Below, one piece after another: positions 1 through 15,934 of a DNA stretch of 64,000 bases (its first letter is position 1; each line of letters starts with the position of its first letter). The notes under the pieces are model-generated. The model made no database searches and was not told the DNA's origin. It saw only the letters and a program-made list of their open reading frames with translations. Location: assembly GCF_000177215.2 (NCBI RefSeq), contig NZ_CM001368.1, positions 1,488,001-1,552,000 on the forward strand, written 5' to 3'. Made by a program: the position numbers and the translations under genes. This DNA is from Solidesulfovibrio carbinoliphilus subsp. oakridgensis (GTDB lineage: Bacteria > Desulfobacterota > Desulfovibrionia > Desulfovibrionales > Desulfovibrionaceae).

Positions 1-3000
1 TGATCCGAGCTGAAACCCCGTGGTTATCTGATTTCTCTGATGTGTTCCCCGCAGGCGCGGGGATGATCCGCCTGCCGTACCTCGTCGAGGTAGGCTTGGC
101 CAGTGTTCCCCGCAGGCGCGGGGATGATCCGACCAGCCTTTCCGCCTCATCAAGATCTCGGCCGTGTTCCCCGCAGGCGCGGGGATGATCCGGTCGAACT
201 GGCGACGACGACCGAGGTACAGACGTGTTCCCCGCAGGCGCGGGGATGATCCGATCATTTCCGTGGAGCTGGAAATCCCGATTATGTGTTCCCCGCAGGC
301 GCGGGGATGATCCGTCACAAAACCCCAACAGCGCCACGGGGAACGCGTGTTCCCCGCAGGCGCGGGGATGATCCGATCATGTCGCCTTCTATGATGGTCG
401 GTTCCATGTGTTCCCCGCAGGCGCGGGGATGATCCGGGCCGAATGTCCCGAGCCCGTCGTCGTCACTGGTGTTCCCCGCAGGCGCGGGGATGATCCGTCC
501 TCTCGCCAGGCGAAGCAAGGATGATTTTGGTGTTCCCCGCAGGCGCGGGGATGATCCGGCGGATAATGGAATTTGCGTGCATCGACCTGAGTGTTCCCCG
601 CAGGCGCGGGGATGATCCGATCGCGGACACGATTTGGGAGGTGGCGGAGGGGTGTTCCCCGCAGGCGCGGGGATGATCCGCTGGCTCGGCTGGAACGCCG
701 GCTGGACGGGAGGTGTTCCCCGCAGGCGCGGGGATGATCCGTCATCTCCCCGCACGTAAGCGGTGGGCGTCCAGTGTTCCCCGCAGGCGCGGGGATGATC
801 CGGTAGGGATGATATCGCGTGGCTATTTGAAACAGTGTTCCCCGCAGGCGCGGGGATGATCCGCGACCTGGAACTTGTGGTATTCTGTTTCGGTGGTGTT
901 CCCCGCAGGCGCGGGGATGATCCGGCGACGCACGGCCCGGGTCGGCCGCAGCCCTAGTGTTCCCCGCAGGCGCGGAGATGATCCGTCGGCTCCTTCCGTG
1001 TTGAGTGAGGCCGCAAAGTGTTCCCCGCAGGCGCGGGGATGATCCGGCAACGGGCGAGTCACGGCAAAATCTAGGGTCGTGTTCCCCGCAGGCGCGGGGA
1101 TGATCCGGCGGGTGGTTTGCGCAAGTCCCATGCGGCCCCGTGTTCCCCGCAGGCGCGGGGATGATCCGGCCAGAGGGTCGAAGGAGAGCCGGCCGACCAG
1201 GTGTTCCCCGCAGGCGCGGGGATGATCCGTATTACGGCCAGGGCATCGGCCAGCCGTTGACGTGTTCCCCGCAGGCGCGGGGATGATCCGCGTCAGCAGG
1301 CCGTGACCGAGCAGACCGAGCAGTGTTCCCCGCAGGCGCGGGGATGATCCGTGCAACGTTGACCCCGGCTTTGCCTGCGTGTGGTGTTCCCCGCAGGCGC
1401 GGGGATGATCCGTGCGCCGCCGTGCCCTCGTCGGCGTAGACCGAGTGTTCCCCGCAGGCGCGGGGATGATCCGGCGAGCCCAGGACTTCTTTGTCCGCGA
1501 TTTGCGTGTTCCCCGCAGGCGCGGGGATGATCCATCCTGGATGTCCTCGACGACGGGAAGAAGTTCGTGTTCCCCGCAGGCGCGGGGATGATCCGTGATC
1601 GTTGTCGCCATCAAGCGGGACGGCTCTGTGTTCCCCGCAGGCGCGGGGATGATCCGGTGGACCAGGTCTTCTGCCGAAGCCGGTGTGCGTGTTCCCCGCA
1701 GGCGCGGGGATGATCCGACGGCGACGACAACGGCCGCGCTGTCCCCGGCGTGTTCCCCGCAGGCGCGGGGATGATCCGGTGGATGGGGAGATCTCCCGGG
1801 ACTTGGCCCGGTGTTCCCCGCAGGCGCGGGGATGATCCGTCAATTGTTGCGCCGTTTTCCCGACCCCACATGTGTTCCCCGCAGGCGCGGGGATGATCCG
1901 GCGGAAGCCGAATGCGACCAGTTGGAACGCCTGTGTTCCCCGCAGGCGCGGGGATGATCCGGCTACCCGATCATTTTCGCGGGGGAACTGCTCGTGTTCC
2001 CCGCAGGCGCGGGGATGATCCGCCCGCTGTGGCCGTGGCCGGCAGGGTGACTGTGTGTTCCCCGCAGGCGCGGGGATGATCCGAATCATTTAACGGGATA
2101 TTGTTTATTTTATAAGTGTTCCCCGCAGGCGCGGGGATGATCCGTCGCAGCTTACCACGTTCTTTTCCGTGGGCCAGTGTTCCCCGCAGGCGCGGGGATG
2201 ATCCGAATTCGACGCTGCGTTGCGTCGGACCAGATGAGTGTTCCCCGCAGGCGCGGGGATGATCCGACCCAATGCCCAGTAGTACCCATTAAACCGTGGT
2301 GTTCCCCGCAGGCGCGGGGATGATCCGGCCGACGTCGCGGCCGGGGAGGTGGATTTGATGTGTTCCCCGCAGGCGCGGGGATGATCCGCCATGGGCTCCC
2401 CCGTCCTCCTCGCCGTCTCCGTGTTCCCCGCAGGCGCGGGGATGATCCGGCCGTGTAGTGGCTCGGATGGTTGACCGCGTCGTGTTCCCCGCAGGCGCGG
2501 GGATGATCCTTTAACCCCCGCCGAACCAACTTCAGCGGGGGCGTGTTCCCCGCAGGCGCGGGGATGATCCGTTTTCCCAGTTCACGACGGCCGCGCACAT
2601 AAAGTGTTCCCCGCAGGCGCGGGGATGATCCGGCGGCCAAAAATGCCTGAGCCGAAAACCCTCCGTGTTCCCCGCAGGCGCGGGGATGATCCGGTCAATG
2701 CCATAGTTGCTCGCCATTGCAGCGTGTGTTCCCCGCAGGCGCTGGGATGATCCGTCATGACACCACAGGCGGCCGTTTTGATGCAGGTGTTCCCCGCAGG
2801 CGCGGGGATGATCCGACCCGTCCCAGGTCCGGAGCGTCCTTGACCTCGTGTTCCCCGCAGGCGCGGGGATGATCCGGACATGGTTTCCAGGTTCGAAGCG
2901 GAGACAGAGTGTTCCCCGCAGGCGCGGGGATGATCCGAGAACGAGCATCCGGTGAACAAGCACGCCCTGGTGTTCCCCGCAGGCGCGGGGATGATCCGGG

Positions 3001-3182
3001 TCCAGGCCCTCATCCTCGCGCAGATGGAGGAGTGTTCCCCGCAGGCGCGGGGATGATCCGGCACATCCGTGCGGCCGCCGGGGAGAGGGTGTGTGTTCCC
3101 CGCAGGCGCGGGGATGATCCGAGCTTGCCGAGGGTGAAGCCGCTCTTGTCGGCGTGTTCCCCGCAGGCGCGGGGATGATCCA
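1..3182 (+). CRISPR. Type I-E-like CRISPR array (52 complete repeats, continues past left edge)
   Basis: A 29-nt repeat begins GTGTTCCCCGC, has the palindrome CCCCGC-AGGC-GCGGGG and ends GATGATCCG. It recurs every 61 bp from 42 to 3182: 52 complete copies, preceded by the last 7 nt of another copy at 1-7. Spacers are 32 nt, apart from one extra base somewhere between 2482 and 3093. The repeat matches the E. coli-type I-E consensus in this orientation, so the array should be transcribed rightward with its leader left of the window. In agreement, the last repeat (3154-3182) has lost its final G, as expected of a trailer end. Other variants sit near 961-985, 1507-1535, 2482-2510 and 2726-2754. 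No I-E cas genes (cas8e, cse2, cas6e) are in the window. Confidence 0.97.
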
Positions 3183-3321
3183 GCACCATCGACCCCATTC
3201 CTCATAATAGCGATCTTCCCTTCAATGGCATCCTTAGGCCTTTTTATGCCGCCGCCCCTCGCTGCCCTTTCACCTCTTCGTACATGGCGTCCGGGGCCAC
3301 GTCCGCGCCGTTGATCATGAA
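3183..3321. other. 139-bp gap between the two CRISPR trailer ends; possible gene remnant
   Basis: This is the only non-repeat sequence between the two convergently read arrays. Read on the minus strand it contains an open stretch that starts inside the outermost I-C repeat and ends at a TAA near 3245 (protein tail ...YEEVKGQRGAAA). It looks like the C-terminal end of a lost gene, but it is too short to identify. No strong hairpin with a U-tract is visible to separate the two array transcripts. Confidence 0.4.
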
Positions 3322-6300
3322 GTTTCAATCCGCGCCCCCGCGCAGGGGGCGACCCGCCTCACGCTTGGCCTGCGCCTCGGCCTCTTGGTTTCAATCCGCG
3401 CCCCCGTGCAGGGGGCGACAAACCGACATGTAAGGAGCGACACCATGCTGCGACCGTTTCAATCCGCGCCCCCGTGCAGGGGGCGACGTTGTATTTGTGT
3501 TTTGGGATCATAGTCGGATGGTGTTTCAATCCGCTCCCCCGTGCAGGGGGCGACGCCCAACGATGAAGCGGGCGGCTTTTGGGAGGTGTTTCAATCCGCG
3601 CCCCCGTGCAGGGGGCGACGTCCCGGCCTTGTCGGCGGCGGCCAGCTTGTCCTTGTTTCAATCCGCGCCCCCGTGCAGGGGGCGACGCACCTTGTCCCAG
3701 GGGTCCACGTCAGCAAGACCGGTTTCAATCCGCGCCCCCGTGCAGGGGGCGACTTTAGGCCCCCGGGGATCTTTTTCGGCGAGTTCGGGTTTCAATCCGC
3801 GCCCCCGTGCGGGGGCGACCCCCGCGCCAGTTGTTTCCAAAATGGAAAGCACTGTTTCAATCCGCGCCCCCGTGCAGGGGGCGACCTGTGACACCAGCAC
3901 CCGCGCAACGAAGGAGACGGTTTCAATCCGCGCCCCCGTGCAGGGGGCGACTTCGGCCGGAGCGACCTATGCCGACTTGGCGGCAGTTTCAATCCGCGCC
4001 CCCGTGCAGGGGGCGACCTATCCCGGTGCAGGCTGTTGTCTCGCGCCCGGGGGTTTCAATCCGCGCCCCCGTGCAGGGGGCGACGGCGGAGGGGCAGGCC
4101 GAAGGTCGCGGCGAAAAGGTTTCAATCCGCGCCCCCGTGCAGGGGGCGACTCGACTGCATCAACCGCATGTTCGACTGGATGCAGTTTCAATCCGCGCCC
4201 CCGTGCAGGGGGCGACTCATACGGGCGGTTCCGGTCCGCGTTCCAGTCCATGTTTCAATCCGCGCCCCCGTGCAGGGGGCGACCAGGTGGCGGGCGCCAT
4301 TGCGGGGGGTATCATCGGTTTCAATCCGCGCCCCCGTGCAGGGGGCGACCTTCAGGGCTTTCTTCATGATCGGCAGTGCCGAAGTTTCAATCCGCGCCCC
4401 CGTGCAGGGGGCGACCGGTGCTCATGCCGAAGCATTAGATCGGATCGGGGTTTCAATCCGCGCCCCCGTGCAGGGGGCGACCGGAAAGCTGCTTTGCGCG
4501 GTGCGGTTCATCGGGGTTTCAATCCGCGCCCCCGTGCAGGGGGCGACCCTCCTTCAAAAAACGTCAGTTTCCGAAGCGATTCAGTTTCAATCCGCGCCCC
4601 CGTGCAGGGGGCGACCCGGCTGTACCGCTTCGGCGAGTGGTACGGGTGGTTTCAATCCGCGCCCCCGTGCAGGGGGCGACCCTAGCCCCGAACGTGGCCG
4701 CTTTGCGGATGTCCGAGTTTCAATCCGCGCCCCCGTGCAGGGGGCGACGGGGGAGCCGCAAGGTCAAGCTCCACGACAAGGTGTTTCAATCCGCGCCCCC
4801 GTGCAGGGGGCGACTTTCCGTCTTGGCCGGTTGCGACATGAACGATCAGGTTTCAATCCGCGCCCCCGTGCAGGGGGCGACCCGGAGGAGATGTTATTGT
4901 TACACAGTATAGGGGGTTTCAATCCGCGCCCCCGTGCAGGGGGCGACGCCACCCGCACAACGGCCCTGATAGCGGCGGCAGTTTCAATCCGCGCCCCCGT
5001 GCAGGGGGCGACAACATCCGACCCGAAGTTTCGTGTCGTTGCGAAGGTTTCAATCCGCGCCCCCGTGCAGGGGGCGACTGGCCGGGGAGAAAAGCGCCGA
5101 TCAAAACACTACCGGTTTCAATCCGCGCCCCCGTGCAGGGGGCGACCGACCTTTATAACGGGTACGCGAGAGAAACAAAAAAGTTTCAATCCGCGCCCCC
5201 GTGCAGGGGGCGACCGCTGGCTCGAACGTCAGACCGAGCAGCCAGGAGGTTTCAATCCGCGCCCCCGTGCAGGGGGCGACTTGTGCGGTTCTTTCCAGCT
5301 CATGAAGGCGGAACAGTTTCAATCCGCGCCCCCGTGCAGGGGGCGACCTTGTGTATCACGAGGCCCTGTGCAGCGTGCTGTGGTTTCAATCCGCGCCCCC
5401 GTGCAGGGGGCGACCCTGAGAAGTGGAAATGTCATAGTTCGGCATCGTGTTTCAATCCGCGCCCCCGTGCAGGGGGCGACTTCAGGATGCAGACGCACAG
5501 CCGCTTCCATGTCGGTTTCAATCCGCGCCCCCGTGCAGGGGGCGACCGGCGCCAAGGTCCGGGCTGGGGAACTCTTCGCGGTTTCAATCCGCGCCCCCGT
5601 GCAGGGGGCGACATGTCTAGGCAGGTCTGCATGACCCGGTAGCGGTGGTTTCAATCCGCGCCCCCGTGCAGGGGGCGACTGAGGTCCTGATGCCGCCGAA
5701 AGTTGGTTGCAGACGTTTCAATCCGCGCCCCCGTGCAGGGGGCGACTGCGGGCGATCCCCGCGTTGAAGGGAAAATGCTATGTTTCAATCCGCGCCCCCG
5801 TGCAGGGGGCGACCTCCCTGGATCAATGCTGTCCCAGGTGCTGAGTCGTTTCAATCCGCGCCCCCGTGCAGGGGGCGACCCGGCCGCACGGCATGGGCCA
5901 GCACGGAATAGACGTTTCAATCCGCGCCCCCGTGCAGGGGGCGACATTGGCCACGGTCATCACGGCGGCCAATGCGGTGTTTCAATCCGCGCCCCCGTGC
6001 AGGGGGCGACTACGACCACGAAACGAAGCGGTTCTACCAACGCGTGTTTCAATCCGCGCCCCCGTGCAGGGGGCGACGGCATCACTGCCCCCCAGAAAAC
6101 CCAGGGCCTGGCTGTTTCAATCCGCGCCCCCGTGCAGGGGGCGACAGGTCTCGATATCAAACCCGGCCGAGGGGTTTGAGTTTCAATCCGCGCCCCCGTG
6201 CAGGGGGCGACAGAAGGTGCTCATCCCCTTCGTCAACAAGGACGAGTTTCAATCCGCGCCCCCGTGCAGGGGGCGACCCATGGTCCAGATCGGGTCGCAG

Positions 6301-7943
6301 AACTGGCGGATGTTTCAATCCGCGCCCCCGTGCAGGGGGCGACTCCAATAAGATAATTCATCCCCATGGACAGACGTGTTTCAATCCGCGCCCCCGTGCA
6401 GGGGGCGACTATTTGGCCTCGACCTCGTCCTTGGACATCCCCTGGTTTCAATCCGCGCCCCCGTGCAGGGGGCGACTTCGTGTTCTGGGGCCGGTCGCGA
6501 AACGGCAAGGGTTTCAATCCGCGCCCCCGTGCAGGGGGCGACTGTGGCCAAGGGGCCGCTGCTTGAGATTGTCCGACCGTTTCAATCCGCGCCCCCGTGC
6601 AGGGGGCGACCCGGCCACTTCAAGGACATGGTGGACGAACGGCTGTTTCAATCCGCGCCCCCGTGCAGGGGGCGACACCCGTGGCCCAGGGTGACGTGTT
6701 TCATGGCAACGTTTCAATCCGCGCCCCCGTGCAGGGGGCGACCTCCCCCTACACGGCGGCGGCTCCCCAACAGAGGTTTCAATCCGCGCCCCCGTGCAGG
6801 GGGCGACCGCATTCAACCACACAAATGGTCGCGATCATTACGTTTCAATCCGCGCCCCCGTGCAGGGGGCGACCAGCAGGGTCCGCGACTTGCCGGTCCC
6901 CATGTCCATGTTTCAATCCGCGCCCCCGTGCAGGGGGCGACAAGGTGTACCGGCCCGCGTGATGCGCCAGATCCGGTTTCAATCCGCGCCCCCGTGCAGG
7001 GGGCGACTCTGGGCCAACAATCCGGCCATGGCCGGGTTGGTCGTTTCAATCCGCGCCCCCGTGCAGGGGGCGACTCAACGTGACCTTCACCGGCATGGAG
7101 TCCGTGGAGTTTCAATCCGCGCCCCCGTGCAGGGGGCGACACGGCCCAGGCCCGGCGTTCGGAATTTCTCCTCCAGAGTTTCAATCCGCGCCCCCGTGCA
7201 GGGGGCGACAGGTGGACCTTTTCGGCCGCGACCACCCGATGGTTGTTTCAATCCGCGCCCCCGTGCAGGGGGCGACCAGCGGTAACCACCCCGGGAGCGC
7301 AGGTGCAAAGTTTCAATCCGCGCCCCCGTGCAGGGGGCGACTCTACCATCACGGCAAACCAGTAATCCAGGAGGGGTTTCAATCCGCGCCCCCGTGCAGG
7401 GGGCGACCCTCGGCCGAGGCCAGTTTCCGAAACCTGCACCTGTTTCAATCCGCGCCCCCGTGCAGGGGGCGACCGGCAGGCCCTGCGACTGCCAGACGAA
7501 GGCGCGGAGTTTCAATCCGCGCCCCCGTGCAGGGGGCGACCGAAGCAGCACCACGCAGGCGACCGGCTGCGAGTCGTTTCAATCCGCGCCCCCGTGCAGG
7601 GGGCGACGGTCGTCGTCGCCATGAGATTCAACGCGGACGTGAGTTTCAATCCGCGCCCCCGTGCAGGGGGCGACGGGAGATCAATTCCGCCAGGATCGAG
7701 ACCCTTAAGTTTCAATCCGCGCCCCCGTGCAGGGGGCGACGCGAATTTGTCAATTGGCACCTCGACCTGACGGACTTAAGTTTCAATCCGCGCCCCCGTG
7801 CAGGGGGCGACCGGCGATCTGGCGGTACAGGTCCACCTCGTCCAGGTTTCAATCCGCGCCCCCGTGCAGGGGGCGACCGACGATGCCGCCGGACTCCCGC
7901 CCCTCCCGGGGGTTTCAATCCGCGCCCCCGTGCAGGGGGCGAC
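3322..7943 (-). CRISPR. Type I-C CRISPR array (70 repeats, 69 spacers)
   Basis: Seventy copies of a 32-nt repeat, written on the plus strand as GTTTCAATCCGCG...GGGGGCGAC. On the minus strand it begins GTCGCCCCC, forms a GCCCCC/GGGGGC stem and ends CGGATTGAAAC, the canonical type I-C 3' end that gives an 11-nt crRNA handle after Cas5c cleavage. Spacers are mostly 33-36 nt; the longest is 39 nt (7741-7779). The minus strand is the crRNA strand, so the leader is at the right end, directly downstream of cas2. Degenerate repeats cluster at the left end: 3322 has T to C, 3523 has G to T, and 3789 lacks one base. That confirms the left end as the old, leader-distal end. Confidence 0.98.
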
Positions 7944-8122: not shown

Positions 8123-8413
8123 TCAGACGATGAGCGGGCCTTCCTGGTCCACGCCCGGTTTGGCGCCGACATGCTCCACCCTCCCCCGCCAGTTGGAACC
8201 GAGGTAATAAAATCGCAGGCTGTCCTTGTCCGCATCGATCAGACCGAGCAAACGATGTTTCAGGCGCTCCCACTGGCCCGGGTCCACCACGCACTCGAAC
8301 ACCGAAAACTGCACGCGCTGTCCATAATCCTTGCACGCCTTGGCCACTCGTCGCAGGCGGCCGGGACCGCCGGCATCGGACGTCGCGACGTCATAGCTCA
8401 CCAGCACCAGCAT
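8123..8413 (-). CDS. cas2: CRISPR-associated endonuclease Cas2 (type I-C)
   Basis: A 96-residue protein, the usual Cas2 length. It opens with the ferredoxin-fold strand MLVLVSYDV containing the conserved Asp8, and has the family's FSVFEC strand at about 37-42. Cas2 forms the dimeric centre of the Cas1-Cas2 integrase that inserts new spacers at the leader-proximal repeat. The ATG at 8413 lies 3 bp after the cas1 stop, so the genes are translationally coupled. It is the last gene of the operon and runs directly into the leader of the I-C array. It belongs to the adaptation module with Cas1 and Cas4. Confidence 0.96.
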
Positions 8414-8416
8414 GGC

Positions 8417-9448
8417 CTACTTCCACAACAGCGGCGGATAGCCGTCCAGATCGCCCCGCACATAGCGGGCCAAGAGCGTCGCCTGCATGTGAAACAGCAA
8501 TCCAAGCGGCATCTTTTCCCGCAGAAACGGATGTTCGACCACATCCTGCTTGCGTTCCTGATAGGCAATGAGCACCTCCTTGCGCGTGGCCTCGTCCATG
8601 AGCACAGCACCGGTCTCGGCCCGGGTGAAACCTTTGGGCCGCACCCGCCCCAGATTGATCAGGGTCAAGGCCAGCCGGTCGGCGAAAAAAGGCCGGAACT
8701 CTTCCATCATATCCAGGGCCAGTCCGGGCCGGCCCGGCCGGTCGCGGTGCAGGAACCCCACCGCCGGATCGAGCCCCGTCGTCTCCAGGGCTGAACGCAC
8801 GTCATGGGCCAGCAGCGTATACAGAAACGAAAGGAGACAATTGACCGGGTCAAGCGGCGGACGGCGATTGCGGCCGTCAAACCGGAAGGCCTCCTTGCCC
8901 GAGACGATGAGTTGGTCGAACACGCCGTAATAGGCATGGGCCGCGTCGCCTTCCAGGCCGCGCAGGGCGTCCAGGTCGTTTAGCGTCCCAAGGCCCGTCC
9001 CGTGCTGGGCCAGCCGGTCGGCGGCCAGACGCACGGCCGGGACATCGATCTTCTCCCCGTGGTCCCGGATGGCCCGCAACAGCACGGTACGGGCATTGGC
9101 CAGCTTGCCGACAAGGAAATAACGCGCCGCCGCCGTACTGGCGGCAGGATCGTCCGCCATGCGATATTGCTGCCGCCGCAAAAGGACATTGCCCGAAACG
9201 TTTCCCTGCACCTTGGCCAGGAAACGGCCGTTCACGGTCAAAAAGCTCACGGCCACATTGTTTTCAGCGCAGTGCCCCAATAAAAAGGGACTGACCGACA
9301 CCTGCCCGAAACAGACCACCCCGGCCAGGGTGTGGATGGGCAGGCGAAGGCGCACCGTCTCCTCGACTTTTATGGCCAGCGTTTCGCCGTCCTTGAACAG
9401 ATACGCGCCCTGGGTGGTCACGTAGAGGGTATTGAGATGTCGCTTCAT
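8417..9448 (-). CDS. cas1: CRISPR-associated endonuclease/integrase Cas1 (type I-C)
   Basis: A 343-residue Cas1 of normal length. The metal-binding residues are visible: Glu166 in LRGLEGDAAHAYY, His234 in GFLHRDRPGRPGLALDMMEEFRP and the acidic residues at 246-250. Cas1 is the integrase that joins prespacer 3' ends to the leader-repeat junction. The protein also carries the N-terminal beta-sandwich and helical C-terminal lobe typical of subtype I-C Cas1. Its ATG at 9448 overlaps the cas4 stop by 4 bp (ATGA), and cas2 follows after 3 bp. The catalytic residues look intact, so adaptation should be active; the large, mostly uniform array fits this. Confidence 0.97.
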   Translation of the reverse strand: MKRHLNTLYVTTQGAYLFKDGETLAIKVEETVRLRLPIHTLAGVVCFGQVSVSPFLLGHCAENNVAVSFLTVNGRFLAKVQGNVSGNVLLRRQQYRMADDPAASTAAARYFLVGKLANARTVLLRAIRDHGEKIDVPAVRLAADRLAQHGTGLGTLNDLDALRGLEGDAAHAYYGVFDQLIVSGKEAFRFDGRNRRPPLDPVNCLLSFLYTLLAHDVRSALETTGLDPAVGFLHRDRPGRPGLALDMMEEFRPFFADRLALTLINLGRVRPKGFTRAETGAVLMDEATRKEVLIAYQERKQDVVEHPFLREKMPLGLLFHMQATLLARYVRGDLDGYPPLLWK

Positions 9449-10077
9449 GGCGTCTCCAGCGCGTGTTGCAAATAGGCCCGGACCGAGCGTTTGCCGGTGC
9501 AGGCCCGCGGCAGGCAGGCCCCTTCCATGGAGCAGGAGGCGCAGCGGGAGTCGTGCACGGCCTCGGGCGTGCGGCCGGCCCGGAGAAAGGCGTGGAGATC
9601 GAGGCAGGCGTCGCGCGTCGTCTGGCGCAGCGCCGCATCAATGGCCACGGCCAGGCGTCGGCGGGTGCGGCCGTAAAAAAGCGCCCCGGCCGGTACCGGC
9701 CGGCCCAGCATCTCCTCCAGACACAAGGCCTGGGCGCACAGTTGCACCGTGTCGCAGACATCGGGCTTGGGTTTGCCGCGTTTGTATTCCACGGGAAAGG
9801 CAATCTCCCCGCCGCCGGCGGCCGGGTGAAACTCCACCACATCGGCCACGCCCGTCAGGCCCAGTTCCAGGGAGCGCAGGGGTACGGCCCGGGCGATACG
9901 CACGCCGTCGTGGGATTCGTACCCCTGCTCGTGGGCACGTTCGTGGAGGATGCCGCCCTGGACCGTGAACACGTTTTCGGCCCAGGCCCGCTCGATATGA
10001 ATCAGCGCGCATTGCCGCCGGCAAAAGAGCAGGTGTTGCAGGGCCGAGATCGGGAGCAGCTCGTCCTCGGTGAACAT
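9445..10077 (-). CDS. cas4: CRISPR-associated exonuclease Cas4 (type I-C)
   Basis: A 210-residue PD-(D/E)XK nuclease with Fe-S cluster cysteines at 19 and 23 (FCRRQC) and at 179, 182 and 188 (CASCSMEGAC). Nuclease residues are His45, Asp79 (GVADVVEF), Glu97 and Lys99 (VEYKRGK), plus Gln112 in the QLCAQALCLE motif. In type I-C, Cas4 binds Cas1-Cas2 and trims prespacers so that the PAM end is recognised and inserted in the right orientation. The gene lies 11 bp after cas7 and overlaps cas1 by 4 bp. All key residues are present. Confidence 0.95.
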   Translation of the reverse strand: MFTEDELLPISALQHLLFCRRQCALIHIERAWAENVFTVQGGILHERAHEQGYESHDGVRIARAVPLRSLELGLTGVADVVEFHPAAGGGEIAFPVEYKRGKPKPDVCDTVQLCAQALCLEEMLGRPVPAGALFYGRTRRRLAVAIDAALRQTTRDACLDLHAFLRAGRTPEAVHDSRCASCSMEGACLPRACTGKRSVRAYLQHALETP

Positions 10078-10088
10078 GGCGGTCTCCG

Positions 10089-10958
10089 CTAGAGTTTTTC
10101 GATCAGCTCCACCCCGGCCGGCAGGTTGGCGGCGTCCACGGCCACGGCGTAATCGGCATAGGCCCGGGCCGGCGAACTCCTGTCCGTGGCCCGCGACACG
10201 CCGACCAGATCAAAGAGCTTCTGGGCCGGGGCGTTGCCGAGCATCGACTCGTGCTTGAAGACGACGAGCTTTCGAGCGCTCATCTTGCCCCGCGCGGCCG
10301 AATGGTCGTGGTCGAACATGACCATGAGCGCCTGCCACAACAGCTCCAGGTCGTCCGCGGAAAACCCGGTCTGGGCGGCCAGATGGGCCGAGATGAAGCC
10401 TTCGGCCCGATACAGGCCGTAGGGCACGATGTGCTTGCGGCCCATGGTGCGGTTGTCGCCGGACTGGCTTTCGGCTTCTTTTTCCGTGGCCACGGCCATG
10501 CGGGTGATGCTCACTTCGAGCGGCACGATGGGTTCGAGGCTGCGGGCGAAGTTGAGCTGCACCGGGCCGCGCACCTGACCGCAGTTGTTTTCCTTAAGGG
10601 ACATCACCGCGCCAAAGGTGCGCACGTCGAAGAAGTTGGCGCACATCCAGTCCCGGGCCTCCTTGATGGCATCGGCTTTCTTGCCGCCGTCCTTGGCCAC
10701 GGCGGCATAGGCCCGGCCCTGCACCGTGCCGAGGACGGCCTTTTCGCGGATATAGATCTCGTAGGGGCTGGCGTTGCCCTTGGCCAGCTCCACGAAATTG
10801 CGGATCTTGCGCTTGAGGCACACGTCCGTGACCAGTCCGTGGCTCGTTTCCGGGTCCAGGCGCGGCATGTTGCCGGCATCGGGGTCGCCGTTGGGGTTGC
10901 CGTTTTCCACGTCAAAGAGGAACACGAACTCGTAGCGGTTGGCGATTATCTGGCGCAT
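10089..10958 (-). CDS. cas7c: Type I-C Cascade backbone subunit Cas7 (Csd2)
   Basis: A 289-residue RAMP-fold protein. The N-terminal segment [20 protein letters not shown] is the signature of the Csd2/Cas7 family of subtype I-C. Several copies form the filament that holds the spacer part of crRNA and flips out every sixth base. The gene sits between cas8c (3-bp gap) and cas4 (11-bp gap) in the standard I-C order. Length and motifs are normal and no frameshift is seen. The six-base periodicity of this subunit matters for reading the pseudo-spacer upstream of cas5, which is mismatched only at positions 6 and 12 of its first 16. Confidence 0.96.
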
Positions 10959-10961
10959 GGT

Positions 10962-12671
10962 CTAGTCCTCCCCCTTGGTCTTGGCGGTCTTTTTGTAGTT
11001 CTCGCGGCGCTGGTGGTAGTAGCCGATGGCGAACATGCCCTGCTCGTCCAGGGACAGGTGCTTGGGAAACGTCTGGACGGCGCCCAGGATTTCCTCGATG
11101 CGCCGGTCGGAGACGCCGCCGTATTCGGCCTTTTCGATGTGGTGCTGGGCCAGCCGCATGAGTTGCGGAAAAACCGCCGCCGGGGTGGCCGAGGCCGAGC
11201 CGTAGTAACGGTCGCGGATGGTGGTGTTGGCGCCGGGTATGGCTTCCTGCTGGGCTTTTTCCAGGACGGCGAACAATCGCCCCAGCCGGTAGCCGATATC
11301 GGCGGACGTCTGATCGAGACTCACGGACACCTCCTTTGGGGTGTTGCGCACGAGATACGCCTTGAGCATGGCCGCGCGCAGGTAGTTGACGGTCTGATCG
11401 GCCCGTATCCGGGCGATGACCGCTGCCGGCAGGCTGGCCGGATAGGGTGCGTCGGTCAGTATGGAACGCATGAGGGCCCCGGCCAGGGCCGGATTGACGT
11501 TTTTGAGGTCGTTTTGCGGGGCGGTTTCCCGCAGGAGCTGCCACAAGCCCGGGAACTCGGGCTCGGTGTCCCAGGTCCGCTCCAGGTTCAGGGCCGCGAA
11601 ATGGCGGCCCACGGTCTGGCACACGCCGTCCACGGTGTCCTGGTGCCAGAAGCGCACGGACAGGCGGGCGGCGTTAGGGGCCAGCCCCAGGATAAAAAAA
11701 CCGCTTTGTAGGATCTCGGCATCGAAGGCGGGATGTTTGCCGTCCCGGACGGCTTCCAGGAACAGTCGGACCTCGGCCTGGCTGCCGTCGTCGGCCGTGG
11801 GATCGAACAGGAAGCCGAGCAAGCCTTCGACCTCGGACGTGCGTTCTGTCCAGAAGACCGTGGTGGCGTCGCCGATCTGGACCCGCTGGCGGCTGCCTTT
11901 GCGCAGCAGGTGGTTGAGCGCCGTGGTATAGGCGAATGCAGCCGGCTCCCCTACCGGACCGTTGTAGCTCTGTTCCTTGCCGTAAGATTCAAAAGAATGC
12001 TGGTTGTAGGAAACCAACAATGCACCGACCGACTGGGCATCACGCACCCCTTGAATTTTCGGATGCAACTTGGCGATGGGCGCGTCCTGCCCGGTGACGA
12101 GGCACATGCCGCGCCGTTCCTTGGAAGCGCCGGCCAGATGATCCAGCCAGGCCTGGCGCACGGCCGGGCGTTCGTGGACGTAGCCCAGGCCGCCGCCGGC
12201 CAGCCGGAAAACGAGATTGCAGCCTTTGACCATCTCCTCCCAGCGGGGCAGGTCCGGCGCGTCGGCCGGGTCCCAGGCGTCGAGAAAAGCCAACACGGCG
12301 GCCATGCCGGCGTCGTCCAGGCCGTCGCCGATGGCGTGGCAGCGGGCCTTGAAGGCGGCAAAGGTCTTGGCCGTGCGCTCGGGTTTGCCCTTGTCGTCGG
12401 CCCCGAGCACGTAGCCGGTGTTGTCCCACAGGAAGTTGGCGGCAACGCCCACCGACCGTTTGACGGCCTCGGGCACCACCAGTTCCTGGGGCGTGGCCTT
12501 CTTTCCGTCCGTCTGGCGCAGATCGAAGACCGGCGGCTCGGCCAGCCGGCCGTCGGCGTCGATGTGCAGGGCGAAGTGGATTTTCTGGCGCGAGAACCCG
12601 GAGAGCGGCACCACCGGTTCCGGCTCCCGGCTCAGGCGGTCGTAATAGGCAGCCAGGGAGGAGAGGATCAT
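10962..12671 (-). CDS. cas8c: Type I-C Cascade large subunit Cas8c (Csd1)
   Basis: A 569-residue protein of the Csd1 family, recognised by its length, its position and segments such as PLSGFSRQKIHFAL near the N-terminus and CLVTGQDAPIAKLHPKIQGV in the middle. Cas8c reads the PAM, which is TTC in characterised type I-C systems including that of Desulfovibrio vulgaris, and opens the target duplex. In this subtype an internal start within cas8c often yields the small subunit Cas11c. That is likely here too because no separate small-subunit gene exists, but it cannot be proved from sequence. The start overlaps the cas5 stop by 4 bp. Confidence 0.95.
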   Translation of the reverse strand: MILSSLAAYYDRLSREPEPVVPLSGFSRQKIHFALHIDADGRLAEPPVFDLRQTDGKKATPQELVVPEAVKRSVGVAANFLWDNTGYVLGADDKGKPERTAKTFAAFKARCHAIGDGLDDAGMAAVLAFLDAWDPADAPDLPRWEEMVKGCNLVFRLAGGGLGYVHERPAVRQAWLDHLAGASKERRGMCLVTGQDAPIAKLHPKIQGVRDAQSVGALLVSYNQHSFESYGKEQSYNGPVGEPAAFAYTTALNHLLRKGSRQRVQIGDATTVFWTERTSEVEGLLGFLFDPTADDGSQAEVRLFLEAVRDGKHPAFDAEILQSGFFILGLAPNAARLSVRFWHQDTVDGVCQTVGRHFAALNLERTWDTEPEFPGLWQLLRETAPQNDLKNVNPALAGALMRSILTDAPYPASLPAAVIARIRADQTVNYLRAAMLKAYLVRNTPKEVSVSLDQTSADIGYRLGRLFAVLEKAQQEAIPGANTTIRDRYYGSASATPAAVFPQLMRLAQHHIEKAEYGGVSDRRIEEILGAVQTFPKHLSLDEQGMFAIGYYHQRRENYKKTAKTKGED

Positions 12672-13324
12672 GCCCGCACCTCCGCCGCTTCGAACCGGGG
12701 GACGTCGATGACGCCGCCGGCCAGCCGGGCCCGGAAGAACTTTGGCGTCATGTCGTGGGCGAAGTCGATGTCGTGGAGCATGAACCCCAGGTCCTTGTCG
12801 CGGTCCTGGTCGGCCAGCGCCGAGGCCGGGGCCGGGCCGTCGAGCAGTTCGAAGAAGGCCGGGAACTCACGGCAGCCCAGATAGGGCTGGTTGAAGCACT
12901 GGCCCTTGCGCGCCCGGCGCTTGAACATTTCCGTGTGTTTGGCGGCGTTGTCGTCCTGGCCCGTCAGTTCGAAATGGGCTTCGATGACATAAGCCACGTC
13001 ACGCAGCACGAGCGAGGCACGCTGCTGCCGGTCGTCTTCGGTGAAAAGCGGCGGCGGCGTCCCGCCCTTCATGGCGGACTTGATGTTGCCGTAGGGAATC
13101 TTGCCGCCGAGTTCGTTGCGGCGGATGGCAGTGAAACGGATGGGATGCAAAACGTGGATGCGGTCGATGACCCAGGTGATGCCGGGCTTCCAATAGACGG
13201 CTTCCAGGATGCCGCGCGCGGCCGACGGCGTAATGACGTCGTAGGAGACGCGTTCGGACTTCATTTCAGGTCTCGTGAAGCAGGCGAAATCGCCCCAGAC
13301 CTTGAGCCTGACGCCAAAGGACAT
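12668..13324 (-). CDS. cas5c: Type I-C Cas5c (Cas5d): crRNA endoribonuclease and Cascade subunit
   Basis: A 218-residue RAMP protein beginning MSFGVRLKVWGDFACFTRPE, typical of Cas5d. In type I-C it replaces Cas6: it cuts each repeat below the hairpin to leave an 11-nt 5' handle and then stays bound to it. A Tyr at position 44 (VYWKP) sits where Cas5d enzymes have a catalytic Tyr, and a Lys-containing segment (YGNIKSAMKGG) follows. The ATG at 13324 has an excellent AAGGAGG site 5 bp upstream. This is the first cas gene after the CreR-like element. Cas5c recognises exactly the handle sequence preserved there. Confidence 0.95.
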   Translation of the reverse strand: MSFGVRLKVWGDFACFTRPEMKSERVSYDVITPSAARGILEAVYWKPGITWVIDRIHVLHPIRFTAIRRNELGGKIPYGNIKSAMKGGTPPPLFTEDDRQQRASLVLRDVAYVIEAHFELTGQDDNAAKHTEMFKRRARKGQCFNQPYLGCREFPAFFELLDGPAPASALADQDRDKDLGFMLHDIDFAHDMTPKFFRARLAGGVIDVPRFEAAEVRA

Positions 13325-13390
13325 GCCAACCTCCTTGCTGGTGTGCGATGGAGCGTGGCCACTGCCGCGTGTTATTCTCTGAGTTGGCAG

Positions 13391-13400
13391 ACCTCCTTTC
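13391..13400 (-). promoter_or_regulatory. Strong Shine-Dalgarno-like sequence without a usable start codon
   Basis: GAAAGGAGGT on the minus strand is a near-perfect anti-SD complement. It is followed by no ATG, GTG or TTG at a usable distance; a CTG lies in frame with cas5. The real cas5 site is a second AAGGAGG near 13330. It may be decoy, vestigial, or part of the regulatory RNA described at 13402-13541. Confidence 0.4.
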
Positions 13401-13401
13401 C

Positions 13402-13488
13402 CCTGCCCTGGCGGACAGGATTATTTGCAATTATCTAACAATAACTGTTTCAATCCGCTTTCCGGCAGCTCTCGCCGCTTTTTGCGAC
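13402..13488 (-). ncRNA. CreR-like pseudo-crRNA: degenerate I-C repeat, pseudo-spacer, hairpin
   Basis: Read on the minus strand. The pseudo-repeat (13488-13447) starts GTCGC, contains a diverged hairpin (CGGC-GAGAGCT-GCCG) and ends GCGGATTGAAAC. Those last 12 nt are identical to the array repeat and cover the full 11-nt crRNA handle. The pseudo-spacer begins at 13446 (AGTTATTGTTAGATAA...). A 7-bp hairpin (13419-13402) follows about 27 nt later and could define the RNA 3' end. No second repeat is present. The pseudo-spacer matches 14 of the first 16 positions of a site at 13527-13512 flanked by a TTC PAM; the mismatches are at 6 and 12. A Cascade-bound regulatory RNA that represses the cas5-cas2 operon is inferred from this. 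Confidence 0.8.
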
Positions 13489-13511
13489 GAGACTCACCTG
13501 AAAGTCGTTCT

Positions 13512-13541
13512 TTATTTAACATTAACTGAATTTTAAATCAA
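13512..13541 (-). promoter_or_regulatory. Predicted cas5-operon promoter overlapped by the pseudo-spacer target and TTC PAM
   Basis: On the minus strand, TTGATT (13541-13536) and TTAAAT (13519-13514), 16 bp apart, form a plausible sigma-70 promoter that starts near 13507. It would transcribe the CreR-like element and then cas5-cas2. The target is TTC at 13530-13528 followed by AGTTAATGTTAAATAA at 13527-13512, so a bound Cascade would cover the promoter spacer and all of the -10 box. The promoter call is by eye; the PAM and target match are read directly. Confidence 0.65.
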
Positions 13542-13595
13542 CAAGAAAATAAACATTTGCATAAATAAAACAGACAAACGATATGAGACACTAAG

Positions 13596-13624
13596 CCCCC
13601 CCGCCGGCCGAAGCGGCAGAGGGG
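13596..13624 (-). terminator. Possible cas3 terminator
   Basis: Just after the cas3 stop codon, the minus strand can fold CCCC...GCCG-CTT-CGGC...GGGG and is followed by a T-rich stretch (13590-13560). This would separate cas3 from the downstream promoter that drives the rest of the cas genes. The U-tract is interrupted, so confidence is moderate. Confidence 0.45.
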
Positions 13625-13633
13625 ACCGCGTTG

Positions 13634-15868
13634 TCACGCTATCCAGTCCTCGCCCCGAAAAACGCCGGCCGCGTCGCCGGACAAGCCCTCTTCGTCGTCG
13701 TAGCGCGACATCCGGCGCAGCACATAAAATCGCTCTTGCACGCATTCCACGTCGCCGGCCGCCACCAGCGCCGCCCGCACCCGGGCCGGTACCTGCACCG
13801 TGTAGCGCTGGGCGCTGCGGGCCAGACCGCCGGTATGCTCGGCGTGTTCGAGCCCCCGGACAATGGCCTCCCCCGCCTGGCCCCAGGGGATGATGACCGG
13901 TTCGCACGCGCTCTCGATCATCTGGAACTCGTGAGCCACCTGGCGAAACGGAAAATCGAGGGTATTGGCCCCGGCGTGCAGGGCGGCGAAGATTCCCGCG
14001 ATCCGGTCGTTTTTCTTGTCCAGGCCGTCCGGGCCGACGCGCCAGTAAAGCGCCTCGAAATAGGCCGCAACCGCCTCCGGCGACAACGGATCGGCAAAGG
14101 CCCGCAGCACCACATGCCCCTCCTCGGCCGCCCGGCGCAGCTCTCCGGCCGGCGGCGCGGCTTCGGCCTCGAAAACATAGACCACGCCCTCGGCCAGCTC
14201 CCCTTCGCGGTTGCAGCGCCCGGCCGCCTGGGCCACGCTGTCCACCCCGGCCTCGGCCCGATAGACTGCCGGAAAACTCACATCCACGCCGCACTCGATG
14301 AGCTGGGTGCTGACCACCCGGCACGGCTGCCCCGCCTTGAGCGCCGCCCGGATGGCCGCCAGCTTCTCGGAGCGATGGGCCGGACACATGCTGGCGCTCA
14401 GATGAAAGACCCCCGCCCCCGGCCCAAGCAGGCCGTGGAGCCGCCGGGCATGGGCCCGGGTGTTGACCACGCACAGGACCTGCTCGTGCTCCCGCAGCCG
14501 CTTGACGAGTTCGTCGTCGGTGAGCTTGCCCAGATGGGCGACGCGGGTCCGTTTCAAGGCCGCGAAAAGCCCGGGCACGTCGGCCACGATCTCGCGGGGC
14601 GGCTCCAGGCCGAAGGCAAATCCCTCGCGCCGGGTGAGCGCCGGCTGGGTGGCCGTGCATAGAACCACCGTCGTGCCATAGCTCTCGGAAAGCTCGCGAA
14701 GGGCCTCGAGGCACGGCCGCAGCAAGGTCGGCGGCAGCATCTGCGCCTCGTCCAGGATGACCACGCTCTTGGCGATGTTGTGGAGCTTGCGGCAGCGTGA
14801 GGAGCGGTGGGCGAAAAGCGATTCGAAAAACTGCACGCTGGTGGTGACGACAAGGGGCGCGTCCCAGTTCTCGGCGGCCAGTTCGTGACGCCGGCCAAGG
14901 CCCTCGTCGCCGGCGGGTTCGGCCGCGTCCTTATCTGTCCGACGCTTGGGATCGTAATTGCTGTGATGCTCCACCACCGCTTCCGGCCCGACGGCCGACC
15001 GGAACACGTCGGCGTTCTGCTCGATGATGCTGGTATAGGGAATGACGTAGATGACCTGTTTACGGTCATGGGTAATGGCGTGGTTGAGGGCAAAGGCCAG
15101 CGACGACAGGGTTTTGCCGCCGCCGGTCGGCACGGTGAGCGAAAAAAGGCCCGGCGCGTCCCCGGCCGCCCCCAGACACCAGCCGAGCACCTTGGCCCGC
15201 CAGGGATCGACGGGCGAAGGCTCGGCCTTGGCGGCAAATTGGGCCAGATGGGCGGTCAGACGCTCCCGCATGGTTTCCAGCGTCGGATAGCCGCCGCGAT
15301 GGGCGTGTTTCTCCCGGTCCAGAAAGGCTTCGGTATCGAGAAAATCCGCATCGACCAAGCAGGAATAGAGCATGCGGATGAAAAAGGCGCATTGAAAACC
15401 GGTGCGGCCGAGGGCCGGGGTGAAGGGAAAGGCTTCGGGCGCCTGCCTGCTGTCGGCCAGGGTTCGGGCCGGCTCGGGCACGAGGGCGGCCTTGAGCCGC
15501 GCCGCCAGACAGGCGAGGTCGTTGTCCCGCCCGTCAGGCAGCCCGGCATGGTGGCCGGCGATGCAGTAGGCGAGGAGCTTGCCCGGCCCCTTGAAGCGGT
15601 CCACGGCCAGCCGGGCCCCGGCCGAGGAATGGTCGACCCGCTGGCCGTCCCCGGCCAGCCGCCGCTGGAAGGCCTCGGTGTACTTGCCGGCGTCGTGGAA
15701 GAGTCCGGCCAACGCGCCCCACTCCCCCGCGCCGAACCGATCGGCAAAGTCCCGGGCCAGAGCGCCCACGCCGTGCAAATGCGCCGCCAACCCCTGCCAC
15801 GCCGACTGGGGCTGCCCTTCCCGGCTGTGGGCGAACCACGGCCCGTCCGATGCTGCTTTCTTTCCCAT
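13634..15868 (-). CDS. cas3: CRISPR-associated helicase/nuclease Cas3 (type I-C)
   Basis: A 744-residue Cas3 with an N-terminal HD nuclease (His30, His32, LFHDAGK with His58-Asp59, HHAG at 106-109) and a superfamily 2 helicase: Walker A PTGGGKT (248-253), DEAQ box (373-376) and the C-terminal QAAGRCNREG motif. It is recruited by Cascade to nick and degrade the non-target strand in the 3'-5' direction. The ATG at 15868 is preferred over a TTG 39 bp upstream because GGGAGG lies just before it. The gene is separated from cas5 by 309 bp holding a probable terminator and the regulatory element, so it forms its own unit. All catalytic motifs are intact. Confidence 0.96.
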   Translation of the reverse strand: MGKKAASDGPWFAHSREGQPQSAWQGLAAHLHGVGALARDFADRFGAGEWGALAGLFHDAGKYTEAFQRRLAGDGQRVDHSSAGARLAVDRFKGPGKLLAYCIAGHHAGLPDGRDNDLACLAARLKAALVPEPARTLADSRQAPEAFPFTPALGRTGFQCAFFIRMLYSCLVDADFLDTEAFLDREKHAHRGGYPTLETMRERLTAHLAQFAAKAEPSPVDPWRAKVLGWCLGAAGDAPGLFSLTVPTGGGKTLSSLAFALNHAITHDRKQVIYVIPYTSIIEQNADVFRSAVGPEAVVEHHSNYDPKRRTDKDAAEPAGDEGLGRRHELAAENWDAPLVVTTSVQFFESLFAHRSSRCRKLHNIAKSVVILDEAQMLPPTLLRPCLEALRELSESYGTTVVLCTATQPALTRREGFAFGLEPPREIVADVPGLFAALKRTRVAHLGKLTDDELVKRLREHEQVLCVVNTRAHARRLHGLLGPGAGVFHLSASMCPAHRSEKLAAIRAALKAGQPCRVVSTQLIECGVDVSFPAVYRAEAGVDSVAQAAGRCNREGELAEGVVYVFEAEAAPPAGELRRAAEEGHVVLRAFADPLSPEAVAAYFEALYWRVGPDGLDKKNDRIAGIFAALHAGANTLDFPFRQVAHEFQMIESACEPVIIPWGQAGEAIVRGLEHAEHTGGLARSAQRYTVQVPARVRAALVAAGDVECVQERFYVLRRMSRYDDEEGLSGDAAGVFRGEDWIA

Positions 15869-15934
15869 CCCGCCTCCCGCGCGCCGCCCGATCAGGGCCA
15901 ACGCCAAAACAAGTTTTCCTATTTAATATAGTAT

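Follow-up and report, generated by a model that had tools for sequence, protein, structure and literature searches.

The window, the 64,000-nucleotide stretch of DNA that was analysed, contains a complete type I-C CRISPR-Cas operon on its minus strand. Profile matches identified, in operon order, cas3 (13634–15907; TIGR01587 and TIGR01596), a 309-nt gap, cas5c (12668–13324; TIGR01876, E 7e-57), cas8c (10962–12671; TIGR01863, E 1.4e-165), cas7c (10089–10958; TIGR02589, E 1.9e-120), cas4 (9445–10077; TIGR00372, E 8.2e-32), cas1c (8417–9448; TIGR03640, E 1.7e-152) and cas2 (8123–8413; TIGR01573, E 2.1e-18), followed by an array with 70 repeat handles (3322–7943, the far end being accurate to about one repeat). 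The Cas5c, Cas8c, Cas7c and Cas1c profiles assign the system to subtype I-C, a compact subtype that serves as a tool for deletion and repression. Cas6 is absent from I-C, and Cas5c is its crRNA-processing nuclease. A second CRISPR array, located at 39–3186 of the window, comprises at least 50 units of 61 nt and stops about 130 nt short of the start of the I-C array; its repeat, GTGTTCCCCGCAGGCGCGGGGATGATCC, looks like that of type I-E as judged from its letters.

The gap between cas3 and cas5c, the first gene downstream, contains a crRNA-like element and a matching target, all on the minus strand. In the 5′ to 3′ direction, a TTC PAM (13530–13528) is followed by the matching part of a protospacer, AGTTAATGTTAAATAA (13527–13512), a predicted pseudo-repeat stem (13504–13458) closed by the pair C13504–G13458, an 11-nt crRNA 5′ handle, CGGATTGAAAC (13457–13447), a pseudo-spacer (13446–13421) and a predicted 3′ hairpin (13420–13401) that is possibly a degenerate second repeat. 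The handle is identical to the end of the array repeat, and the 12 nt at 13458–13447, GCGGATTGAAAC, are common to the pseudo-repeat and the array repeat, precisely the letters and coordinates proposed by the sequence-only reading of this DNA. The window has 71 copies of the handle (shuffle mean 0.07), of which 70 belong to the array and one to the cas3–cas5 gap. The matching part of the pseudo-spacer, AGTTATTGTTAGATAA, corresponds to 13446–13431, and the TTC-flanked target lies 81 nt upstream of the pseudo-spacer. Positions 1–5, 7–11 and 13–16 pair, positions 6 and 12 are mismatched, and pairing ends after position 16, which reproduces the earlier description letter for letter. The target pattern occurs once in the whole 4.2-Mb genome.

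Folding of the single strand 13507–13402 gave a z score of −6.11, and 0 of 200 shuffles folded as well. With the handle held unpaired, the predicted stem at 13504–13458 closes exactly at the handle and a hairpin at 13420–13401 follows the pseudo-spacer, so that the modelled fold resembles an I-C crRNA in its stem base, 11-nt handle, guide and 3′ hairpin. The lone degenerate repeat of the sequence-only reading is present on the minus strand; its repeat-like part is longer than had been stated, and the additional hairpin had not been described. An 11-nt I-C handle has been reported for another species, and TTC is the I-C PAM used in the same study (PMC10810201).

The element was compared across a total of 212 distinct I-C loci, the window included. 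These consisted of a family set (80 further Cas5c matches above the cut-off, from 288 genomes belonging to the same family, or 81 loci with the window), a phylum sample (60 of the 71 non-family places over the Cas5c cut-off) and a named set (the best 80 of at least 584 relatives, reduced to 71 by removal of nine repeats of earlier loci, a duplicate being defined by 200 nt of identical cas5). Near-exact handles upstream of cas5 were collected on both strands, and a TTC or TTT followed by a match to the pseudo-spacer was sought within 900 nt, scored +1/−2 with sixth positions skipped. A score of at least 9 was reached by 28 of 285 candidate handles, versus 12 of 8,550 shuffled-spacer controls and 17 of 16,875 cross-locus controls. 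For the window itself, the observed score of 14 was reached in 0 of 20,000 trials with shuffled pseudo-spacers in the 309-nt gap, and none of 8,400 control 36-mers, drawn from the 350-nt stretch ahead of cas5 in the remaining 80 family-set loci, reached a score of 12. By this comparison of sequences, a chance origin of the element appears very unlikely.

Elements were found in 29 of the 212 loci, 28 by the fixed cut-off and one (L202, score 8) by eye. They were distributed as 14/81 in the family set, 1/60 in the phylum sample and 14/71 in the named set, the last of which is not a frequency estimate because that set was drawn from the best-ranked relatives. One further locus, L059, was excluded with a hand-estimated score of about 8 for its TTT-flanked match, under the cut-off; its handle had been tested in a shifted frame because its repeat consensus has one extra base. 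The PAM was TTC in 25 elements and TTT in four, these two being the motifs searched. Carriers in the named set include Desulfonema magnum, Pelosinus propionicus, a Lysobacteraceae strain and, as metagenome-assembled genomes, Desulfobulbaceae, Planctomycetota and proteobacteria. The plasmid pTM3 of Tistrella mobilis, one of six plasmid records examined out of 56 that matched Cas5c, also has a plausible element (score 9), outside the count of 29; the other five, including those of Nitratidesulfovibrio vulgaris DP4 and Thermus thermophilus HB27, had nothing above a score of 6. A single scan of viral contigs for the handle together with the pseudo-spacer of the window's clade found nothing.

Among the 28 element-bearing loci in which cas3 was found, 26 have the element between cas3 and cas5 and two (L065 and L207) have it upstream of cas3; the remaining locus, L110, had no cas3 match. 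In the family set, elements were present in 0 of 29 loci with a cas3–cas5 gap below 150 nt, 1 of 15 with a gap of 150–250 nt, 12 of 32 with a gap of at least 250 nt and 1 of 5 in which the gap was unmeasured. Nitratidesulfovibrio vulgaris DP4, with a cas3–cas5c gap of 13 nt, has no element there. Since the elements are mostly confined to long gaps, they sit where the promoter of the effector operon would be expected. Three elements (L227, L234 and L235) are oriented away from cas5. In a fold test of fixed 45-nt stretches, 20 of 29 elements, versus 491 of 1,740 shuffles, were predicted to form a helix of 4 bp or more that stops no further than 2 nt from the handle; the window is absent from these 20 because the 45-nt stretch cuts the 5′ arm of its stem. 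A second-repeat-like start, GTC[GA], lies 14–40 nt past the handle in 18 of the 29 elements, the window not among them, and at 16% of 5,800 control positions. At L110, two TTC-flanked matches to one pseudo-spacer were observed 32 nt apart, 489 and 457 nt upstream of cas5.

Mismatches between pseudo-spacer and target were concentrated at every sixth position. Across the 29 elements, each of positions 1–5 matched in 28 or 29 and position 6 in 6; position 10 matched in 29, position 11 in 27, position 12 in 5 and position 13 in 25. Position 17 matched in 19, position 18 in 6 and position 19 in 9, with a drop after position 17. As the original score had skipped every sixth base, the selection was redone without skipping; the 30 matches obtained in this phase-free way were mismatched at positions 6, 12 and 18 in 45 of 65 cells and elsewhere in 25 of 439. 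The skipping score retrieved 28 elements at phase 6 and 9–10 at every other phase, and 19 were retrieved without skipping. Type I Cascade flips out each sixth base of its guide, and given this property the spacer/target pairs look selected for Cascade binding. The suggestion that the unmatched bases 6 and 12 of the pseudo-spacer are those flipped out by Cascade agrees with the pattern across elements.

Two loci from the same genus as the window, L032 and L033 (the latter corresponding to L172, Solidesulfovibrio alcoholivorans DSM 5433), keep the layout to within a few bases while differing in their letters. At position 5, spacer and target are A/A in the window, T/T in L032 and G/G in L033, and pseudo-spacer positions 13–16 read ATAA, AGGC and AGAG, respectively, each matched by its own target. 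The PAM is TTC in L032 and TTT in L033. The predicted stem against the handle has 6 bp in L032, in other letters than in the window, and is weaker (3 bp) in L033, where the 3′ hairpin is present in the fold. Conservation of the handle together with the PAM-flanked match in homologous loci had been set in advance as a check on the sequence-only reading, and it was seen both in these co-changed letters and in the 29 of 212 loci. Two other loci of the genus, L037 and L038, have handles for which a good target was not found. Exact cas-strand handles in the family set lacked a match of at least 9 in 5 of 16 cases (L037, two in L038, L040 inside the cas3 region, and L051), and in L058, a sister of L068, the pseudo-spacer is retained with a poorly matching target. 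In the cas3–cas5 gap of L037 and L038, two or three pseudo-repeats lie close together, their pseudo-spacers being very short, and the opposite strand has a tRNA-Pro.

The co-changed letters bear on two alternatives. The element could be the dead remnant of an old array unit whose match to neighbouring AT-rich DNA is fortuitous, as its degenerate repeat and the AT-richness of both stretches would allow; the shuffled and cross-locus controls and the sixth-position pattern led to the rejection of both chance and relic origins, and with the co-changes in relatives added the remnant is scarcely credible. The element could instead yield a Racr-like repeat-mimic RNA that titrates only Cas5c or Cas7. 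Racr RNA anti-CRISPRs also combine a solitary repeat with a Cas-binding part, I-C examples exist, and one prophage carries a solitary I-C repeat that inhibits I-C (PMC10651486), all of which suits a solitary repeat with an intact handle. Racr are, however, phage- or plasmid-borne, carried by mobile elements, and a self target is not required of them (PMC10651486), whereas the present element sits in the host cas operon between cas3 and cas5c and has a matched, PAM-flanked target that a titrating RNA would not need. Because that target covaries, pure titration was ranked low and is considered highly improbable.

Promoters were predicted with a weight matrix of textbook frequencies, and only the strand in the cas direction was scanned. 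The pair TTGATT-16-TTAAAT, with the predicted −35 box at 13541–13536 and the predicted −10 box at 13519–13514, ranked first within 250 nt on either side of the target and overlaps it. The target is on the same strand as this predicted promoter and covers part of the promoter spacer and the −10 box. A strict consensus scan of 13300–13660 found no promoter. The TTGA of the predicted −35 box is kept in L032 and L033, and the top-ranked promoter of both loci lies elsewhere, not over the target. Coverage of a −10 box by the target, as first read, is upheld by the weight-matrix promoter of the window and not by the strict scan or by the best promoters of the two relatives; the window promoter is regarded as moderately convincing as a prediction. 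For 17 of the 29 elements, no more than 25 nt separate the PAM from the −35 centre of the highest-scoring local promoter; random PAM sites of the same strand would be expected to give 3.6. In a cruder test, the top-ranked promoter overlapped the 35-nt target footprint in 8 of 29 loci (3.7 expected). The target is on the opposite strand in 11 of the 29, with the PAM 4–16 nt upstream of the −35 centre.

These features place the element close to CreR, for which autorepression is stated in subtypes I-B, I-E and V-A (PMC13131331, citing Liu et al., Cell Host Microbe 2023), a range that does not include the I-C system of the window. Another review treats type I and V-A generally, and I-C is absent from its main text (PMC12737573). 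As in CreR, a crRNA-like RNA with limited complementarity to a cas promoter would be expected to give autorepression: a degenerate pseudo-repeat with an intact processing handle adjoins its own cas operon, the pseudo-spacer shows partial complementarity to a site, flanked by a PAM, within the predicted cas promoter, and pairing is short, at 16 positions, which presumably lies below what Cas3 interference needs in I-C. Unlike CreR of the three subtypes, the element belongs to I-C, has an 11-nt handle and would be cut by Cas5c, and unlike CreR as described, the I-C element has matches that reach positions 16–17. No paper on CreR in I-C was among the matches listed in the open-licence literature. 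As far as the literature was searched, the I-C form, with Cas5c replacing Cas6, is apparently new, the basic loop being known from I-B, I-E and V-A. Shmakov et al. reportedly described, in NAR in 2023, isolated repeats and mini-arrays, often facing cas promoters, from a variety of systems that were mostly type I, and their crRNA-like elements would be of the same class as the window element.

We consider it highly probable that the stretch 13541–13401 (minus strand) is a CreR-type guide that lets Cascade repress its own operon at the promoter. On the sequence evidence the guide is real, selected, Cascade-directed and facing the predicted promoter of its own operon, and function by repression is very likely. 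As the guide matches this likely promoter over about 16 letters, the system probably keeps itself switched down. The promoter at about 13541–13514 would drive a transcript that starts beside the pseudo-repeat hairpin and continues into cas5c-cas8c-cas7-cas4-cas1-cas2. Cleavage by Cas5c at the stem base would leave the 11-nt handle, and the guide would be loaded into I-C Cascade, which would read TTC and pair with the promoter at positions 1–5, 7–11 and 13–16. Such pairing would be enough to bind and to exclude RNA polymerase, and insufficient for Cas3 cleavage. An increase in free Cascade would then lower cas transcription, and repression would be lifted by extra array crRNAs or by an anti-CRISPR that takes Cascade away. 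The CreR-type reading first made from the window is thus strengthened by L032 and L033, the recurrence in 29 of 212 loci, the sixth-position pattern and the position of the PAM near predicted −35 boxes.

Published measurements bear on this autorepression in both directions. In a reporter assay, I-C Cascade bound at a promoter gave about 700-fold repression (PMC10810201). For CreA of the I-B system, an 11-bp seed suffices, while engineered I-B spacers of 16 and 20 bp still left about two thirds of the control level (PMC10989794); by analogy, this weak repression counts against the reading of the window.

CreA also introduces the third alternative, an addiction module of the CreTA or CrePA kind in which the guide represses a small toxin gene or toxic RNA and repression of cas is secondary. 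In CreTA (I-B), CreA pairs at positions 1–5 and 7–11 beside TTC, and it shares with the window element the TTC PAM, this pairing and a degenerate repeat (PMC8501985). Small ORFs lie beside the targeted promoter in ten other loci (L052, L094, L141, L212, L232, L239, L097, L100, L107 and L173). Unlike that of CreA, the target in the window is the predicted cas5c promoter, and a toxin gene was not seen. Between target and cas5c, the sole listed ORF of at least 25 codons is a frame of 33 codons that lacks a Shine-Dalgarno match; L032 has no listed ORF of at least 25 codons, and L033 has only an unrelated 26-codon frame. The 33-codon ORF, which starts in the target, was tried as a creT-like gene and set aside because it was not found in L032 or L033. 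Under the targeted promoter of the window there is only this 33-codon ORF and no recognised toxin gene, and an RNA could still act as the toxin. As the window has no conserved small ORF, the element is better filed under CreR, and an addiction module is judged unlikely here.

A wider reading is offered tentatively, as plausible though somewhat short of probable: that the I-C guides in several phyla form a Cas5c-processed class that has converged on a single design, with the PAM near −35, three matching blocks of 5 nt at 1–5, 7–11 and 13–17 followed by a stop, and both orientations in use, and that part of them hold down, or also hold down, small uncharacterised ORFs between promoter and guide that are unreported CRISPR-guarded toxins. 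A native short-pairing I-C guide would mean that cas expression may be set by the amount of free Cascade. Natural elements of this kind may also supply lengths and positions already suited to repressing without cutting. In the comparative set, the every-sixth-base rule can be read as a product of evolution within I-C, and the small ORFs emerge as candidate guarded toxins.

Several of these ORFs, possible guarded toxins of the CreTA or CrePA kind, recur between loci. L052 and L094 have a Cys-rich ORF of 54–55 aa with two CxxC pairs between target and guide, about 300–130 nt upstream of cas5; it had no Pfam match over the cut-off. In L141, L212, L232 and L239, a related ORF of 24–28 codons, with EPP as its final residues, is situated between targeted promoter and guide, about 125–215 nt upstream of cas5, and its L212 form had no Pfam match. 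In the cas3–cas5 gap of L097, L100 and L107, the guide is upstream and a small hydrophobic ORF starts inside or immediately beside the target, an order like that of an addiction module. In L173, a metagenome-assembled genome of Pseudomonadales, a HicA-like ORF (Pfam E 1.9e-14) is located 658–421 nt upstream of cas5, directly after the guide, and the target of that guide is upstream of the ORF.
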